This document shows, one piece after another, positions 6,903 through 12,745 of a DNA stretch of 64,000 nt. Position 1 is the first letter of the stretch. Every line of letters starts with the position of its first letter. The stretch comes from Archaeoglobaceae archaeon (GTDB taxonomy: Archaea > Halobacteriota > Archaeoglobi > Archaeoglobales > Archaeoglobaceae), in assembly GCA_027028145.1 (NCBI GenBank), contig JALVJV010000023.1, positions 62,001 to 126,000 on the forward strand, in the 5' to 3' direction. Below the pieces are notes generated by a model. It saw only the letters and a program-made list of their open reading frames with translations, had not been told where the DNA came from and made no database searches. The position numbers and the translations under genes were made by a program.

Positions 6903-7250
6903 ATTATTTTTAATGATCTTTGAAGTATATATCTTAAAAATAATTGGTTTTGTTAGGTTATACCAAAAACGGTCTATTTTTTCGCGAATTAACCAAAAAA
7001 GTTCAAAAATTTGCGATTTTGGAAAGATTTGGTCGATGAATTGCTGAACATTTCGATTTTAAACGCTAAATTCTTGTCCAAGTTTTGCGAAAACTTTAAA
7101 AATCAATAGTTAATAGCTTCTACTTAGCCTGATCAAAGTAAATTTGATACGGGCTGTCAAGTCCGAAAAAAATCCGATGTCTTCCGCTTAAACCCAATTA
7201 AATTTGAAAATATGCTCAAATTGGGGTGAAAAATATGGAAGAAAGGGGGG
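6903..7250. other. AT-rich intergenic region with an imperfect hairpin
   Basis: About 350 bp without a convincing gene. It is strongly AT-rich, with poly-T tracts (6970-6980) that may terminate the upstream operon. Just before speD there is an inverted repeat: AATTTGA (7202-7208) pairs with TCAAATT (7216-7222), extended by ACCC (7192-7195) and GGGGT (7223-7227). It could be an operator, an RNA hairpin in the leader, or simply composition. Confidence 0.4.
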
Positions 7251-7256
7251 ATGATT

Positions 7257-7595
7257 ATGATCGTAGGAAGGCATATAATTGCGGAGTTGTATGGAGTTCC
7301 AAAGGAGCTAATTTCAAATGAGAGCACGGTAAGGCAGATTGTGGAGGAGGTAGTCAAAGAGGCGGAGCTGAACAAAGTGGGCAGTGTATACAAGCAGTTC
7401 AATCCGCACGGCGTGACGGGAATAGTTTTGATAGCGGAGAGTCACATATCGGTGCACACATGGCCGGAATACGAGCTCGTAAACTTGGATGTGTTCACGT
7501 GTGGTGATGCAAAAAAAGCTGAGAAAGCCTTCCAGCTGTTCTTAGAAAAGTTTAAACCCAAATCATACAGGCACTACATACTCGACAGGGGTTAG
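7257..7595 (+). CDS. speD: S-adenosylmethionine decarboxylase proenzyme (or arginine decarboxylase of the same fold)
   Basis: About 112 residues. The pyruvoyl self-cleavage site is the ESHIS in IAESHISVHTWPE: cleavage before Ser makes the pyruvoyl group, and the following His and the Cys in VFTCGDA are the usual proton-transfer residues. ATGs occur at 7251 and 7257; the GGGGGG run ends at 7250, so a six-base spacing favours 7257. The product, decarboxylated SAM, supplies aminopropyl groups and fits directly with the next gene, bpsA, four bases downstream. Some archaeal proteins of this fold decarboxylate arginine instead; the neighbouring aminopropyl transferase supports the SAM assignment. 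Confidence 0.88.
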   Translation: MIVGRHIIAELYGVPKELISNESTVRQIVEEVVKEAELNKVGSVYKQFNPHGVTGIVLIAESHISVHTWPEYELVNLDVFTCGDAKKAEKAFQLFLEKFKPKSYRHYILDRG

Positions 7596-7599
7596 GGAG

Positions 7600-8628
7600 A
7601 TGATGGAGAGAATTAGAAGGCAAATCTTGCAGGCTTTGTTTAGAGAGCCAATGAGCGTCTACAGGCTTATCGACGAGCAGGATGCGAGCTTACCGGAGTT
7701 TTTCGAACTGCTACAGCAGATAGAGAGCGAGGGGCTTATTGCTATTGAAGACGGGAAGGTCAAGCTTACGGAAAAGGGCATCGAGGTCTGTGAGTCCTTG
7801 GGCTTGAAGAAGATCGGCAGATTCGAGTGCAAGTGTTGCGGAGGAACGGGATACGAGATAAATGAGTTCTTTCAGGAAGTTATGAAGGAATACGCTAAAA
7901 TTGCAGAGGAGAGACCAGAGGCAATAGAGAAATACGATCAGGGATTCATAAGCTTGGACGGCGTAATCAGAAGGGTGGAATTCTTATATGAGAGGGGAGA
8001 TCTGCTTAAGACCAAGATCTTCGTCGTCGGAGATGACGATCTGTTCAGCTTGGCTTCGGCTCTCACTGGTTTGCCGGAGAAGGTATTCGTAATCGACATC
8101 GACGAAAGGCTGATAGATTTCATAAATAAGAAGGCTGACGAATACGGATTGCCGGTAGAAGCTGAAGTCTACGACGTTCAGCAGGCTTTTCCGGATGATC
8201 TTAAGAGGAAATTCGACGTCTTCGTAACGGATCCGGTCGAAACGATCCCCGGGCTAAAGCTTTTCCTTTCGAGAGGCGTTTCGACGCTCAAGGGTGTGGG
8301 ATGCTCCGGATACTTCGGCTTAACAACGCTTGAGGCTTCGAGGAAGAAGTGGTTCGAGATTCAGATGATGATACACGAGATGGGATTCATAATTACAGAC
8401 ATGAGAAGGAAGTTCAACGTCTATCCGCAGGAAGAGAAGAACTTCTTCAGATTTCAGGAGAAGTTGCCGATAGTGAAGAAGCTGGGAGTCGGGATCGACT
8501 ATAACTGGTATAAGTCCACGTTGTATAGAATTGAAGCGGTTAAGGAGCCAAAGCCGTTGGTAGAAGGGGAGATGATCATAGACGAGAAGGTCTACAAGGA
8601 CGAAGAGAGTTGGGCTACGCCTTACTGA
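7600..8628 (+). CDS. bpsA: N4-bis(aminopropyl)spermidine synthase (branched-chain polyamine synthase)
   Basis: 342 residues with a winged-helix-like N-terminal region (about 1-75), a CKCCGGTGYE cysteine motif near residue 78, and a Rossmann methyltransferase-like core. In the core, GDDDLFSLA (near residue 145) and the catalytic-pocket DPVET (near residue 208) are the hallmark motifs of the Thermococcus BpsA family. The enzyme adds two aminopropyl groups to the same nitrogen of spermidine, producing branched polyamines that stabilise nucleic acids at high temperature. It shares an operon with speD, which makes its donor substrate. The gene is a good marker that the host is a hyperthermophile. 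Confidence 0.92.
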   Translation: MMERIRRQILQALFREPMSVYRLIDEQDASLPEFFELLQQIESEGLIAIEDGKVKLTEKGIEVCESLGLKKIGRFECKCCGGTGYEINEFFQEVMKEYAKIAEERPEAIEKYDQGFISLDGVIRRVEFLYERGDLLKTKIFVVGDDDLFSLASALTGLPEKVFVIDIDERLIDFINKKADEYGLPVEAEVYDVQQAFPDDLKRKFDVFVTDPVETIPGLKLFLSRGVSTLKGVGCSGYFGLTTLEASRKKWFEIQMMIHEMGFIITDMRRKFNVYPQEEKNFFRFQEKLPIVKKLGVGIDYNWYKSTLYRIEAVKEPKPLVEGEMIIDEKVYKDEESWATPY

Positions 8629-8664
8629 TCTTCTATTTTTATTTCAGCTTTTTCGCTTGATTGG

Positions 8665-8673
8665 TTTTATAAG
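8665..8673 (+). promoter_or_regulatory. TATA box of the C/D sRNA at 8692
   Basis: TTTTATAAG lies about 25 bp before the first bases of the predicted sRNA, the usual archaeal TATA-to-start distance. It is the only strong TATA-like element in the gap after bpsA. Confidence 0.6.
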
Positions 8674-8691
8674 CAGTTCTTGAGATTCACT

Positions 8692-8751
8692 TTGAGGGAT
8701 GAGGAAACTTACGGGGTCTGAACAGTGATGACACTGGGCAGGACTGACCTC
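8692..8751 (+). ncRNA. Box C/D guide sRNA with two guides
   Basis: The plus strand shows the full kink-turn order. C box GGGATGA (8696-8702, one mismatch to RTGATGA), guide 8703-8717, D' box CTGA (8718-8721), 3-nt spacer, perfect C' box GTGATGA (8725-8731), 12-nt guide cactgggcagga (8732-8743), D box CTGA (8744-8747). The D guide is complementary to TCCTGCCCAGTG. From memory, CCUGCCCAGUG is conserved in domain IV of archaeal 23S rRNA, so position-5 methylation would fall on the G after CCU. The D' guide is complementary to ACCCCGTAAGTT, which also resembles a 23S segment. Target claims rest on recall; the box structure is directly visible. Confidence 0.85.
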
Positions 8752-8754
8752 ATT

Positions 8755-8958
8755 TCAATTTCTGGGCGTTTTTGAAGATACATCCTCGATGATTTTGTTG
8801 TCCTCGATTGCCGTAATAGTGGGTGTTGCTGTAACAACTGAAGGCAATGTTCTTTGTTGGTCGATCGGTATCTGTTCCAAAGCGACTGAAGCTTTAATCA
8901 CACCGCCTAATACTACTAAAGTCAATACTATCTCCCTCAGCGATCTAACCCTTTTCAT
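8755..8958 (-). CDS. Small secreted protein, unknown
   Basis: 67 residues with a positively charged start and hydrophobic core typical of a signal peptide (MKRVRSLREIVLTLVVLGGV) ending near SVALEQ. The signal resembles that of the phospholipase-like protein encoded nearby. The mature part is only about 40 residues, Thr/Ile-rich, with no recognised motif. A GGGTGAT ribosome-binding sequence lies upstream of the ATG. It may be a genuine small exported protein or a remnant of a longer one; the open frame is short enough that chance cannot be excluded. Confidence 0.5.
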   Translation of the reverse strand: MKRVRSLREIVLTLVVLGGVIKASVALEQIPIDQQRTLPSVVTATPTITAIEDNKIIEDVSSKTPRN

Positions 8959-8997
8959 CTAATCACCCTCGGAATAGCGATTTATATTCAAACTACA

Positions 8998-9642
8998 CTA
9001 TAAATCGTACCAGTGCTTTCTGAACCACATGTCTATTTTTGCTGACCCTTTTCCCAATATCCAACCTTTACCGCTCGCAACAATTTCATCCACCCTATCT
9101 CCGCAGTACTTTTTACCGTTGTAGGTGGGTTCAAACAGACCGATTCCCGAACAAACGGTTAGGTTTACTACTATTGTTAGGTTGTGAGATGTATAAAATG
9201 GGGCTGTGTAATTTATTAACCTTATAGTTCCATCCAAAGGATCTTTAAACATCGTAGAATTCGTAATGCACGATGGTTTGATAGTAACTTCATTATTAAC
9301 TTCTGTAACCGGGAAATCGAAAAGCTTACGCCCTCTAAATATAATCTTCGAGCCGTTTACGTAATCAGTGTGTAGTTCGAGCATCTTGCCGTATTTAGTA
9401 TCGACTATTTTATACTCCCAACCGTTCCCAAATTTGAAGTTTTCGTATTCGAATATAGGTTTCCCTTTAATGTAAATTATTGGCATAAAAATCGTTACGT
9501 TTGTCGCATTCCCTACCGCAACCGCCTTCACTACGTATCCTCTCGGTGGACCCCAAACCACAGTTAAAGACCAATACACGAACCACGCAATAACAATTAT
9601 TATAAAAATAAGTAAAATTAAATAAATTATCCATTTTCTCAT
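8998..9642 (-). CDS. Membrane-anchored extracytoplasmic protein, unknown
   Basis: 214 residues. Residues 4-28 (WIIYLILLIFIIIVIAWFVYWSL) form one N-terminal transmembrane anchor. The rest is beta-rich and carries many N-x-S/T sequons (NAT, NVT, NGS, NST, NYT, NLT), as expected for a glycosylated exterior domain. Two or three cysteines near residues 133, 173 and 189 may pair. No family is recognised. It sits just downstream of the phospholipase C-like gene on the same strand and is probably in the same transcript. AT-rich codons set this stretch apart from flanking housekeeping genes. Confidence 0.7.
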   Translation of the reverse strand: MRKWIIYLILLIFIIIVIAWFVYWSLTVVWGPPRGYVVKAVAVGNATNVTIFMPIIYIKGKPIFEYENFKFGNGWEYKIVDTKYGKMLELHTDYVNGSKIIFRGRKLFDFPVTEVNNEVTIKPSCITNSTMFKDPLDGTIRLINYTAPFYTSHNLTIVVNLTVCSGIGLFEPTYNGKKYCGDRVDEIVASGKGWILGKGSAKIDMWFRKHWYDL

Positions 9643-9654
9643 ACATCATCCCCT

Positions 9655-10836
9655 CTATATACTCGACAATGTATATTTTATTAGACCTTTTGTGTAGCCT
9701 GCTGTTTCGCCTATTAACATCGTCGTTAAACTCTTTATCGTGTTGAGGTACTTTACATCACCCGTTGCCCTATATAAGTCAATAGCCCAGTCTAAGGTTG
9801 TTAACCAGTTGTAGGAGTATCTGGCTAGCGATACAACGGCTGACTTTGGACTACTTACAGTCTTAGTTTGAGCATAGTAAACAGTATTGTCCAAGTTCCA
9901 GTCTGACCAATGATCGTCAACTAAGTTTTCGTAATACACATGGTTGGGATAGTACAACGGATCGAAAGTAGTATGATAGGGATTACCTACATCTTGGAGG
10001 TAATGTAGTGCGTGTGCTAAGTGTTTATAGCCATCAGTATATTTTCCATCTCTGAAACTGTTTAACGCATCAGTAACGTTTTTATTGCATGCATCCGGTG
10101 CTCCACCAAAGCCCCACGGTCCCACGGGACAATAGCCGTGCTTCCAGATTCTATCCCAACCCTGATCGTATCTGTCTGGATCCCCAGAGTGGTCTCTCAA
10201 TATATTTCTATACTCTTCTGGTATATCAAGAGCCTTTGCAGACTGATAACTTATCTTCTCGTGCGTTCCACCACCGCTTCCTGGTGTGGACACCCACAAT
10301 GGAGAAATAAAGCCACTATGACCAAGTTCGACATCTGCATTTCCGTCTATGGAATAACTAAATACTTTGGTTTTAATTTTACCGCCATTATAGAGATAAT
10401 ACCTTACTTCTTGAGATTTTGTATCTACAATTTTTATTAGTATAACAGTATTATATCGACCCTTTGCGAAGATGAATACGGCAGGCTTCTCTCCTTTTAA
10501 TGGAATTCTAATGACTTCTGTAGGAGTGTTACCATATTTTAAGATGTAGACTTTAGCTTTGTCATACATAGGTTTGTAATGTTCTATATACTTTCTTAGC
10601 TTTGCTGACTCTTTAAATGCATTTAAAGCTTTAATATAAGTCATTCTCCCTTTTATTTCAGTAATAGACAGTTCTCCTAACTTATGTTGAACCATTGTAG
10701 TAACTTGTCCTTCTAGGCACTTTTCCGTATCTAGACTCGTTGTCGCCTCCATTTGTTTCGCCATAGCTAGACTCACTATGTTTCCAAGCACCACTAAAGC
10801 CAATACTACCCCTATCACCGACTTAATCCCTTTCAT
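9655..10836 (-). CDS. Secreted zinc-dependent phospholipase C-like protein
   Basis: 393 residues with a clear signal peptide (GIKSVIGVVLALVVLGNIVSLAMA, cleavage near residue 26). The C-terminal half carries the pattern of the zinc phospholipase C / S1-P1 nuclease fold: GGGTHEKISYQSA near residue 190, an HSGDPDRYD stretch, and the diagnostic HALHYLQDVGNPYHTTFD near residues 278-295, whose His and Asp residues would bind zinc. The N-terminal 160 residues are not recognised and may be a pro- or binding domain. It could hydrolyse phospholipid headgroups or another phosphate ester outside the cell. Activity on archaeal ether lipids is speculative. It is divergent from the secreted protein/regulator pair across a large inverted repeat. 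Confidence 0.75.
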   Translation of the reverse strand: MKGIKSVIGVVLALVVLGNIVSLAMAKQMEATTSLDTEKCLEGQVTTMVQHKLGELSITEIKGRMTYIKALNAFKESAKLRKYIEHYKPMYDKAKVYILKYGNTPTEVIRIPLKGEKPAVFIFAKGRYNTVILIKIVDTKSQEVRYYLYNGGKIKTKVFSYSIDGNADVELGHSGFISPLWVSTPGSGGGTHEKISYQSAKALDIPEEYRNILRDHSGDPDRYDQGWDRIWKHGYCPVGPWGFGGAPDACNKNVTDALNSFRDGKYTDGYKHLAHALHYLQDVGNPYHTTFDPLYYPNHVYYENLVDDHWSDWNLDNTVYYAQTKTVSSPKSAVVSLARYSYNWLTTLDWAIDLYRATGDVKYLNTIKSLTTMLIGETAGYTKGLIKYTLSSI

Positions 10837-10887
10837 CCCACCACCTCTTTTCCTCTCATTTCATATTTAGCCTAATTCTACAAATAT

Positions 10888-10963
10888 TTTCTGACCATAT
10901 ATTGAGAATAATATTATTGAGATTAAATAATTCAAAGTATAATTCTCAAGATATGGTCAGAAA
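10888..10963. promoter_or_regulatory. Near-perfect 25-bp inverted repeat between divergent promoters
   Basis: Left arm 10888-10912 and right arm 10939-10963 are reverse complements at 23 of 25 positions (core TCTGACCATAT...TTGAGAAT), separated by 26 bp of AT-rich sequence. Each arm ends against a TATA-like element: AAATATTT at 10882-10889 facing the phospholipase-like gene, and TTTATATAG at 10965-10973 facing the secreted protein/regulator genes. The mirrored placement, one arm immediately upstream of each TATA box, is what a shared activator or repressor site would look like. The best candidate ligand is the winged-helix regulator encoded at 11368. Confidence 0.8.
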
Positions 10964-10994
10964 GTTTATATAGAAAATAACCACAAATTTCAAC

Positions 10995-11378
10995 ATGAAA
11001 TGGATTAAAGCCGTAGCTGTCTTTCTTCTTTTAGTCGGATTAGCAACCACTGTAAGTGCCAAAGTCGAAAAGAAAATAGGCGTTGAAACCGTTTATAACT
11101 GGATCGGACAGGGCGAATCGCACTGGTATTATTCCTACGTAACATCGCCAACATTTGACGTTTATTTAATCTGGAACAACCCGTCAAACAGCTTAACCTT
11201 AACCGTTTACTCACCGGATGGCAGTGTTAAGACTTACAGAGATGGCTACGACGGCAAGATAGACGGAAAGATAATGATAAGAATAACGAATGCAGAGACT
11301 GGCTACTGGTTCTTCAGAGTCTACGGTGAAAGAGTTAAAGGTATTCAGTTCTACGCCTTTGCTGTTTATGAAGGCTAA
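10995..11378 (+). CDS. Small secreted beta-rich protein (PPC-like domain)
   Basis: 127 residues with a signal peptide (WIKAVAVFLLLVGLATTVSA, cleavage after residue 22). The mature 100 residues alternate hydrophobic and polar residues, with a YSPDGSVKTYRDG turn and a C-terminal GYWFFRVYGE strand. This resembles the bacterial/archaeal pre-peptidase C-terminal (PPC) jelly-roll domain, where the strand TGxYxxxV is typical. It may bind a substrate or sense the exterior. The ATG lies about 25 bp after TTTATATAG, so the mRNA is nearly leaderless. The last 11 bases overlap the start of the membrane regulator, so the two are translationally coupled. Confidence 0.72.
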   Translation: MKWIKAVAVFLLLVGLATTVSAKVEKKIGVETVYNWIGQGESHWYYSYVTSPTFDVYLIWNNPSNSLTLTVYSPDGSVKTYRDGYDGKIDGKIMIRITNAETGYWFFRVYGERVKGIQFYAFAVYEG

Positions 11379-12030
11379 GGTCTTTTTAACCGTTGCAATT
11401 ACTTTGATTTTCATTATAATATTCTTACCCGTAGTATCCGCCTTCAGCGACGAGCCGATAAACGTAAGTGACAAAAAACTGCAGGAAATCTTGAAGAAGG
11501 ATGATCCAAATGAAATTCCAATATCCTTTTGGGATTTACCGCTTTGGATTAAAATCCACTACATAATTACGGTCGTATTGGGTATAATCGGCGTTTGGAA
11601 GTTTCTGCCAATTTTAATTACAAAGTTAAAATCCGCTCTCGAAAACGCAAAGAGACGTAGAATTTTAAAGATAATCATGAAAAATCAGGGTATAAGCGTT
11701 GCCGAACTTGAAGTAATGACGAAAGAAAACAGAAGCACGCTCAGATACCATCTAAGCAGATTGGAGCAGGAGGGATGGATAAAAACCGTTAAGTTCGGCA
11801 AAAACAGGATTATATTTCTCAACACCGATGACATCGATTTAGCGAATGTTGTTAAGGGTAGGAAGAAAGAAATCGTAGAACTTTTAAAGGAAAACGGCGG
11901 CTTGACACCTTCGCAGATTGCTGAGAAATTAAAATTGAACGTTAAAACAGTCTATCATCACTTGGGAAATTTGATAGAATTGGGTATCGTAACTAAATGC
12001 GAGAACGGTAGATATAAACTTACTAAATGA
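11368..12030 (+). CDS. Membrane-tethered double winged-helix transcription regulator
   Basis: About 220 residues from the ATG at 11368 (MKAKVFLTVAITLIFIIIFL), which overlaps the preceding stop; an earlier in-frame ATG at 11290 lacks family support. It has an N-terminal signal anchor, a short exterior loop (SAFSDEPINVSDKK...), a second transmembrane segment (IIGVWKFLPILI region), then two ArsR/MarR-like winged helices in the cytoplasm. The first is RRILKIIMKNQGISVAELEV..STLRYHLSRLEQEGWI, and the second is KEIVELLKENGGLTPSQIAEKL..TVYHHLGNL. The layout suggests that an outside or membrane signal is passed to DNA directly. The target is probably the inverted repeat upstream of its own operon; that link is inference. 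Confidence 0.82.
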   Translation: MKAKVFLTVAITLIFIIIFLPVVSAFSDEPINVSDKKLQEILKKDDPNEIPISFWDLPLWIKIHYIITVVLGIIGVWKFLPILITKLKSALENAKRRRILKIIMKNQGISVAELEVMTKENRSTLRYHLSRLEQEGWIKTVKFGKNRIIFLNTDDIDLANVVKGRKKEIVELLKENGGLTPSQIAEKLKLNVKTVYHHLGNLIELGIVTKCENGRYKLTK

Positions 12031-12292
12031 TTCGGGGGATATATCGAACGTCCGCATACTTCTTGGCGCACGTCGACCTCAGTTCTCAACCGCCCGCAAT
12101 TACCCTCATCCTTAAGTCACAACCCTTCGGAACGCACGACTTCAGTAAATTATACCCGCTCCATTGAAAATTTAGCTATCAACGAGGCTAATTTTTTAAC
12201 CGTTATTACTGCTTATTATTACACGGCAAATTCTCTTTTTACGCATTATCGGACAGTTTTTCCAGTAGGCAATATAATCTTCAATTTTAATT
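12031..12292. other. Non-coding gap between convergent genes
   Basis: About 260 bp with no credible gene. On the minus strand a TATA-like GGTATAATTT (about 12146-12155) precedes, at about 25 bp, a segment with AGGATGA and, 23 nt later, CTGA (12077-12108). It has the outer boxes of a C/D RNA but no recognisable internal D' and C' boxes. The rest is AT-rich. Confidence 0.4.
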
Positions 12293-12745
12293 TTAACAGA
12301 GATTCATCAAAAACATCTTAGCCTCCAAGTTCTTCGCACATATCATATACCCCCATTTTTGTTTTACAATCTGTAAACCGTATTCCGGATCCTCCCTAAG
12401 GTAGAACTTAAATCCGTTAAATACGAACGGTGGTTCCGGCTTTTTGTCCAAATCCTTAAACTTGCATTCGTTCCTGAAGTTACAATCTTCGCAAATTTTA
12501 CCGTTTTTGATTTTGTAGGCTATTTCAGTATCTCCAACAATCGCATCTATCTCCTCAGAACTCAAGTTCAACCTTCTCGATACGTATTTCCTAACCTTCG
12601 CATTCCTCAGAAGCTTTGGAACGTATTCTTCCGGCGTATCAACCAAGCGGTTTGCAAAATCGCAGATTTCCTCGTCTATCCCATGCTCCAAACAGAATCC
12701 CATATGTTCCCTCCAAGACGGCATTAATTTAACTTTCCATATCAA
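12293..12745 (-). CDS. Hypothetical protein with CxxC...C motif
   Basis: 150 residues; the family start may be Met8 (MPSWREHMGFC). No family is recognised. The first half is helical and charged (EHGIDEEICDFANRLVDTPEEYVPKLL). The middle carries CEDCNFRNEC, a compact cysteine cluster suited to zinc or an Fe-S centre. The C-terminus has another Cys (YMICAKNLEAKMF, MNLC). It is isolated on its own strand between the secretion-island regulator and the sRNA/tRNA region, so context gives no hint. Composition and the continuous frame support a real gene. Confidence 0.65.
   Translation of the reverse strand: MIWKVKLMPSWREHMGFCLEHGIDEEICDFANRLVDTPEEYVPKLLRNAKVRKYVSRRLNLSSEEIDAIVGDTEIAYKIKNGKICEDCNFRNECKFKDLDKKPEPPFVFNGFKFYLREDPEYGLQIVKQKWGYMICAKNLEAKMFLMNLC

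Follow-up and report, generated by a model that had tools for sequence, protein, structure and literature searches.

A putative membrane-tethered regulator with a secreted partner and mirrored operator arms opposite exchangeable secreted cargos in Archaeoglobaceae

Transmembrane transcription regulators (TTRs), which join a DNA-binding domain to a transmembrane (TM) segment within a single polypeptide and act from the membrane, form an established class whose members have been counted in archaea (Demey et al. 2023, PMC10269533). The bacterial TTRs ToxR and TcpP have small partner proteins, ToxS and TcpH (PMC7496328, PMC11323476). Here we describe a locus with a similar layout in 64,000 nucleotides from a heat-loving Archaeoglobaceae archaeon (GCA_027028145.1, contig JALVJV010000023.1, positions 62,001 to 126,000), hereafter the window. 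An island at 8760-12231 (no strand assigned) encodes a regulator that we call REG, a small secreted PPC-domain protein just upstream of it and, on the opposite strand, a secreted phospholipase C (PLC)-type cargo; a mirrored operator lies between the two units. We favor, with a probability of about 0.62, the reading that REG is a one-component TM regulator that together with its secreted partner controls exchangeable cargo resembling archaeocins and polymorphic toxins. In the part of PMC10269533 cited here, the REG-PPC module, its partner and its operator are not described, and we found no published description of the PPC-REG pair, the operator and the cargo exchange; the 2019 survey of the archaeal armory (Makarova et al., mBio e00715-19, cited in PMC12352652) lay outside our comparison and may list some of the cargo. 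Makarova et al. 2014 (PMC4158269) had already reported islands of variable secreted proteins and linked them to conflict.

The PPC gene (10995-11378, + strand) and the REG gene (11368-12030, + strand) overlap by 11 bp and are translationally coupled. This overlap had been pointed out in an earlier note made from the sequence alone; the small secreted protein can now be identified as a PPC-domain protein (PF04151, E 4.5e-6), co-conserved upstream of REG. The REG start is the ATG at 11368. A start at 11290 was rejected: it is a mere in-frame upstream ATG, and in the homologue alignment conservation ends at 11368. REG matches HTH_24 in two stretches (E 2.5e-20), and its AlphaFold model (mean pLDDT 81.7, weak in about residues 21-50) shows a helix at 2-26, a long helix at 59-105 and winged helices at 111-151 and 165-218. 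A fold search for REG returned generic winged helix-turn-helix (wHTH) matches only. REG thus shares with the TTRs a predicted DNA-binding domain and a TM region in the same protein, the hydrophobic helices being 2-26 and one within 59-105. Twenty aligned homologues have, in agreement with the model, a signal-peptide-like N-terminus with an A-x-A type end, a short segment, predicted to be outside or juxtamembrane, with a very conserved SFWDLPLWIKIH stretch, then another TM helix and finally the winged helices. The earlier note had given the regulator two membrane segments and two winged helices. The winged helices stand; because the first membrane segment ends in ..VVSA-FS, like a cleavable signal peptide, mature REG probably keeps one TM helix. 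Unlike the TTR examples above, REG has a C-terminal double wHTH, a short outside segment, a secreted PPC-domain partner and archaeal promoters with a TFB recognition element (BRE) and TATA box. Of 295 genomes of the phylum, 150 contain relatives detected by a REG profile (62 of 107 genera). At most loci open to inspection, the REG start coincides with or closely follows the end of a gene for a small secreted protein.

The two units are separated by a repeat, detected by inverted-repeat and motif scans, with one arm at the enzyme promoter (10889-10913, - strand; TTCTCAATATATGGTCAGAAA then ATATTTGTA) and the other at the PPC-REG promoter (10938-10962, + strand; TTCTCAAGATATGGTCAGAAA then GTTTATATA). 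The arms match in inverted orientation at 23 of 25 positions, where 100 shuffles of the window give an expectation of 0. Extended arms (10876-10913 and 10938-10975) are 84% identical and beat 30 of 30 dinucleotide shuffles. The 25-bp repeat that the earlier note placed against the TATA box of each unit therefore holds up, now with shuffle controls. Both arms lead straight into a BRE/TATA promoter, CAGAAAGTTTATATA on the REG side and CAGAAAATATTTGTA on the enzyme side. Read towards its own gene, an arm runs TTCTCAA-N3-ATGGTCAGAAA-n-TATA box, and its last part (CAGAAA) therefore doubles as the BRE. An Rfam match to MIR5512 over the repeat was set aside, being far below its threshold.

In the mechanism we propose, the island would be a single instance of a mobile cassette for regulation. 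REG, tethered to the membrane, would act as a transcription factor: its winged helices would bind the inverted arms, which abut both divergent promoters and overlap the BRE, and REG would thereby set its own PPC-REG operon as well as the opposite cargo. Since the operator lies upstream of the BRE and overlaps it, activation through TFB recruitment and competition with TFB are both possible. PPC would fold outside, contact the short outside segment of REG and pass on a state, which could be its own accumulation, envelope damage or the product of a rival. The cargo would be an archaeocin- or polymorphic-toxin-like exoprotein in which a signal peptide and a pro-domain of the halocin-precursor type precede an exchangeable warhead (a phospholipase C in the window); the adjoining membrane-anchored protein would be its likely immunity or accessory factor. 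Recombination in the conserved promoter and signal-peptide DNA would swap cargos and keep the switch.

The window cargo (9655-10836, - strand) consists, by Foldseek, profiles and alignment, of a signal peptide, a pro-domain (about residues 56-165) and a zinc phospholipase C-type domain (about 175-393). Residues 175-393 have the fold of PC-PLC (Foldseek 8cqm, E 2.7e-6), and a profile of cargo relatives run against the PDB finds PC-PLC at 1e-10. The ligand pattern HxxxDxGNPxH...HxxxE (H278, D282, H288, H299 and E303) is invariant in nine sequences; we take its spacing to be that of the PC-PLC zinc ligands. The phospholipase C-like exoenzyme of the earlier note is thereby confirmed. With the PF00882 family (B. 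cereus PC-PLC, PDB 1ah7) the window protein has in common the fold (TM-score up to 0.74, target-normalized, the value for 8cqm) and the ligand pattern. It differs in its extra archaeal pro-domain, and Pfam reports its relatives (best 9.7e-9, above cut-off) and not the window protein, for which a Pfam scan lists no PF00882 at E<=1.

The pro-domain connects this enzyme to bacteriocins. When it was searched against 3592 ORFs with the signal peptide excluded, halocin C8 precursors of G227 (6e-18) and G008 (1e-15) matched it in their own pro-domains; the C-termini of these precursors pass the TIGR04449 cut-off (G, C and L numbers are our labels for genomes, contigs and loci). By profile search, the window cargo itself lacks the TIGR04449 domain and G000 has no match to it. 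Compared with halocin C8/ProC8 (TIGR04449), some cargos carry the C8 domain and the window cargo has the pro-domain of Archaeoglobaceae C8 precursors, but its warhead is a phospholipase C rather than a Cys-rich C8 peptide. One pro-domain is thus common to PLC and halocin C8 precursors with different C-terminal domains, and this is a hallmark of polymorphic toxins. Like polymorphic toxin systems (PMC3482391), the loci combine constant N-terminal parts, exchangeable C-terminal domains, adjacent variable membrane genes and an island location. Unlike them, they encode standalone signal-peptide proteins that are swapped at the signal-peptide and promoter DNA, under a dedicated membrane regulator.

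In intact Archaeoglobaceae loci, the gene opposite PPC-REG encodes a secreted product that differs from locus to locus. It is a PLC in the window, G005 and G002, and a C39 peptidase with a Spi-like propeptide in G003. The G035 operon encodes a secreted protein of no assigned family, followed by a halocin C8 domain protein (TIGR04449 3.5e-16; 1.4e-16 in a second scan) and a Cys-rich paralogue, and further cargos in the family are several unrelated proteins, likewise of no assigned family. Cargo signal peptides are more alike than the mature parts. Between the window and contig C165 of G003, only 10760-12027 is common (signal-peptide codons, promoter, PPC start and REG, 95% identical): the DNA is alike from the REG stop, across the promoter, as far as about cargo codon 25 and no further, with PLC beyond this point in one and the C39 peptidase in the other. 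The C165 contig holds several further promoter copies, an array of cassettes; a search for related loci among genome contigs gave nothing beyond this same contig. The earlier note had pictured a fixed unit of exoenzyme plus sensor. A membrane regulator with a secreted partner and mirrored operators at both promoters is what we find too, but the cargo is swapped between loci.

The same cargos recur elsewhere. Besides G005, PLC and PPC-REG are divergent in G042; G059 has, opposite PPC-REG, a C39 cargo related to that of G003 (5e-62); and the Methanomethylovorans hollandica plasmid pMETHO01 carries, in a row, a gene annotated as a zinc-dependent phospholipase C, small hypothetical genes and the wHTH regulator. 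The recurrence of the module in G042, G059 and this plasmid, which belong to different families of the phylum, suggests that the association of PLC and C39 cargos with PPC-REG is old or has been repeatedly transferred.

Phospholipase C and C39 peptidase are hydrolases, and they could instead belong to a nutrient or envelope exoenzyme regulon, in which scavenging enzymes are turned on when REG and PPC detect a substrate or a state of the envelope, in the manner of PlcR. PPC domains usually accompany secreted peptidases, and this counts for such a regulon. PlcR works in the cytoplasm, where it responds to an imported peptide, whereas REG sits in the membrane, and the PlcR-PapR proteins are unrelated to REG-PPC. 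The analogy is therefore functional only: PlcR-PapR of Bacillus cereus has a palindromic box, a secreted regulon that includes PC-PLC, and a small secreted partner gene beside the regulator, and as a precedent for a box-defined regulon of this kind it speaks for scavenging (PMC2464732). Against scavenging stand a cargo that is wholly different between 95%-identical regulators, a halocin C8 bacteriocin in one such operon, and a PLC pro-domain common to bacteriocin precursors, a modularity typical of conflict systems. Because loci differ in which secreted gene stands opposite the regulator, antagonism appears to fit better than phosphate or lipid scavenging, and a nutrient regulon seems possible but unlikely. 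It is cargo turnover, the halocin link and pro-domain sharing that suggest antagonism.

The operator was followed across 60 genomes with the pattern TTCTNAANNNATGGTCAGAAA, allowing 1 mismatch, and the reversed pattern as control. The pattern occurs in 20 of the 60, all Archaeoglobaceae; the control scored 0 in every genome. A TATA-like element lies within 10 nt of 71 of the 74 sites, and 44 of the 57 sites with a nearby ORF start lead to a signal-peptide-like protein, compared to 13 of 65 window ORFs. Extra sites are mostly 30-60 nt upstream of signal-peptide genes and often still form inverted pairs, 55 bp start to start (own genus, G010) or 39-40 bp (others). Nearly all inspected Archaeoglobaceae PPC-REG loci show mirrored arms, which are degenerate in G014 and reduced to one weak arm in G034. 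The earlier note had stated that relatives with the regulator and no repeat would refute its model. Instead, at least two sites were found in 10 of 11 Archaeoglobaceae genomes with a strong REG and in 2 of 25 without (10 and 1 versus 2 and 23; Fisher p 2.7e-6, only indicative because the genomes are related), and the eleventh, G034, has a site with a single mismatch and, upstream of REG, another that is weaker.

Promoters of the PPC gene in methanogen families have inverted repeats of their own, which beat 30 of 30 shuffles in seven loci (L190, L191, L194 and L196-L199). Their arms are mostly CAGTTsGAyGATATGGwCAnAAA, of which the inner part (ATGGwCAnAAA) is related and the outer part (CAGTTsGAyGAT) different. 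The combination of gene pair, divergent exoenzymes and repeat, for which the earlier note suggested looking in other archaea, is therefore present in Archaeoglobaceae, and the module with a diverged mirrored operator in methanogen families. In distant families the operator has diverged but is still mirrored and in the same place, which would seem to be best explained by an autoregulator that co-evolves with its site.

Several observations weigh against our reading. Single operator-like sites occur without a strong REG in G004 and G017, both before a ~400-aa secreted family, and operator pairs are found in G010, where REG is perhaps lost or unassembled, and in G009, which has only a weaker REG relative; because these genomes lack a strong REG, another factor may use the motif. 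On contig C165 of G003, the PPC gene has a ~206 bp internal deletion and a frameshift (L067 9162-9329), yet the adjoining REG persists intact, with an intact pair elsewhere in G003. One G034 REG locus has no evident PPC gene, and some outgroup PPC-REG loci adjoin ABC-2 transporter operons and not obvious toxins. Most cargos had no family match in the domain search, and no single conserved immunity gene was found among the cargo loci.

Taken further, the single sites in G004 and G017, along with the G009 and G020 sites that lie close to genes for small soluble wHTH proteins, could mean that the operator is a general Archaeoglobaceae promoter element of another, housekeeping factor; the link of REG to it would then be incidental, and REG would have other targets. 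This we consider improbable: multiple sites track REG across genomes, both arms stand at REG's own promoter, and distant families retain the mirrored arrangement. Equally doubtful are toxin-immunity cassettes in which PPC, being secreted, co-conserved with REG and opposite the cargo, would itself be the immunity or delivery factor and REG would sense envelope attack by the cognate cargo, since PPC is conserved while cargos vary. That is a poor fit to specific immunity, for which the variable membrane genes located downstream of the cargo are the better match.

In our preferred reading of a TM regulator with exchangeable toxin-like cargo, the adjoining gene ANC (8998-9642, - strand) would supply that function or an accessory one. 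ANC encodes a membrane-anchored, outward-facing protein with seven N-glycosylation sequons in 214 aa, in agreement with the glycosylation-rich anchored protein described before. Its homologues lie beside PLC in G010 (5.8e-61), G019 and G008, and ORFs that resemble it by eye lie beside halocin C8 genes in G008 and G023, which makes it a reasonable, if unproven, candidate for an immunity or accessory protein. At other loci, variable membrane genes follow the cargos. The "tiny secreted peptide" of the earlier note (8755-8958, - strand) does not survive as a genuine product. Positions 8912-8967 have 75% DNA identity to the 5' end of the enzyme gene, the N-terminus (a signal peptide) resembles those of other cargos, and the ORF stops 4 bp into host DNA, across the island border at 8759/8760. 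With a cargo-type 5' end cut at the border, this truncated remnant is probably a lost cargo.

Many archaea carry this switch together with other cargo, which gives it the look of a general system, little studied so far, for controlling chemical warfare in archaea. More tentatively, REG-PPC may be a phylum-wide switch for sensing self or rivals, in which external PPC is read by REG and genome-dispersed, interchangeable toxins are coordinated through co-evolving mirrored operators, with cassette exchange at the signal-peptide DNA. Control of secreted weapons is scarcely known in archaea outside haloarchaea and Sulfolobales, and few targets have been assigned to membrane-tethered regulators in archaea; a regulator family found in about half of the sampled phylum is now linked to a defined operator as well as to a secreted partner and a cargo set. 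Binding, signal and regulon are directly testable, including in genetically tractable methanogens, and the operator can be used as a search key for uncharacterized archaeal secreted effectors.

Some loci have features of their own. The start-to-start distances between mirrored arms fall into two classes, 55 bp and 39-40 bp, which differ by about 15 bp. Four loci (L159 at G000 C13:27173-27193, L139, L140 and L152) have a single operator-like site before the conserved ~400-aa secreted protein family, and at L149 and L148 (G009 C1:1673046, G020 C74:36538) sites lie beside soluble winged-helix genes (..TTTPLKLRIMEELKE..), possibly a second regulator layer. L071/L145 (G035 C1:1409678-1415904) holds three operator copies in 6 kb with the halocin C8 gene, the Cys-rich paralogue and multi-TM genes. 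At L131-L133 (G047, G056), PPC-REG pairs lie beside ABC-2 permease and large secreted-protein operons, with near-identical tandem copies in G047.

The island itself (3.47 kb) was delimited by blastn against sister genomes, junction inspection and GC content, which is 0.387 compared to 0.464 in the remaining window and among the lowest 3 of 243 sliding windows. G003 matches window positions 7031-8759 (91.7%) and 12232-12530 (91%), and G001 matches 6908-8759 (92.6%); both lack the island at the corresponding site, where G003 has ~0.53 kb instead, the 3' part of a host gene. Because the sister genomes align up to the border without the island and its GC is low, 8760-12231 is a recent replacement or insertion in the window genome, in line with the accessory, transferred AT-rich block suspected earlier. 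No integrase was seen, and the junction sequences inspected showed no apparent target-site duplications.

The island is flanked on the right by a truncated host gene and tRNA-Gly, and on the left by bpsA and a C/D-box sRNA. The host gene cut by the island (12293-12745) has no Pfam match, and its reading frame runs ~180 codons further in G003. The C/D-box sRNA-like sequence (8695-8750) scores below the Rfam cut-offs, is kept in G001, G002 and G003, and stops ~10 bp short of the island's left edge. At 7251-8628, a speD-like gene is directly followed by the bpsA-like gene, which we take to be a polyamine operon beside the island.

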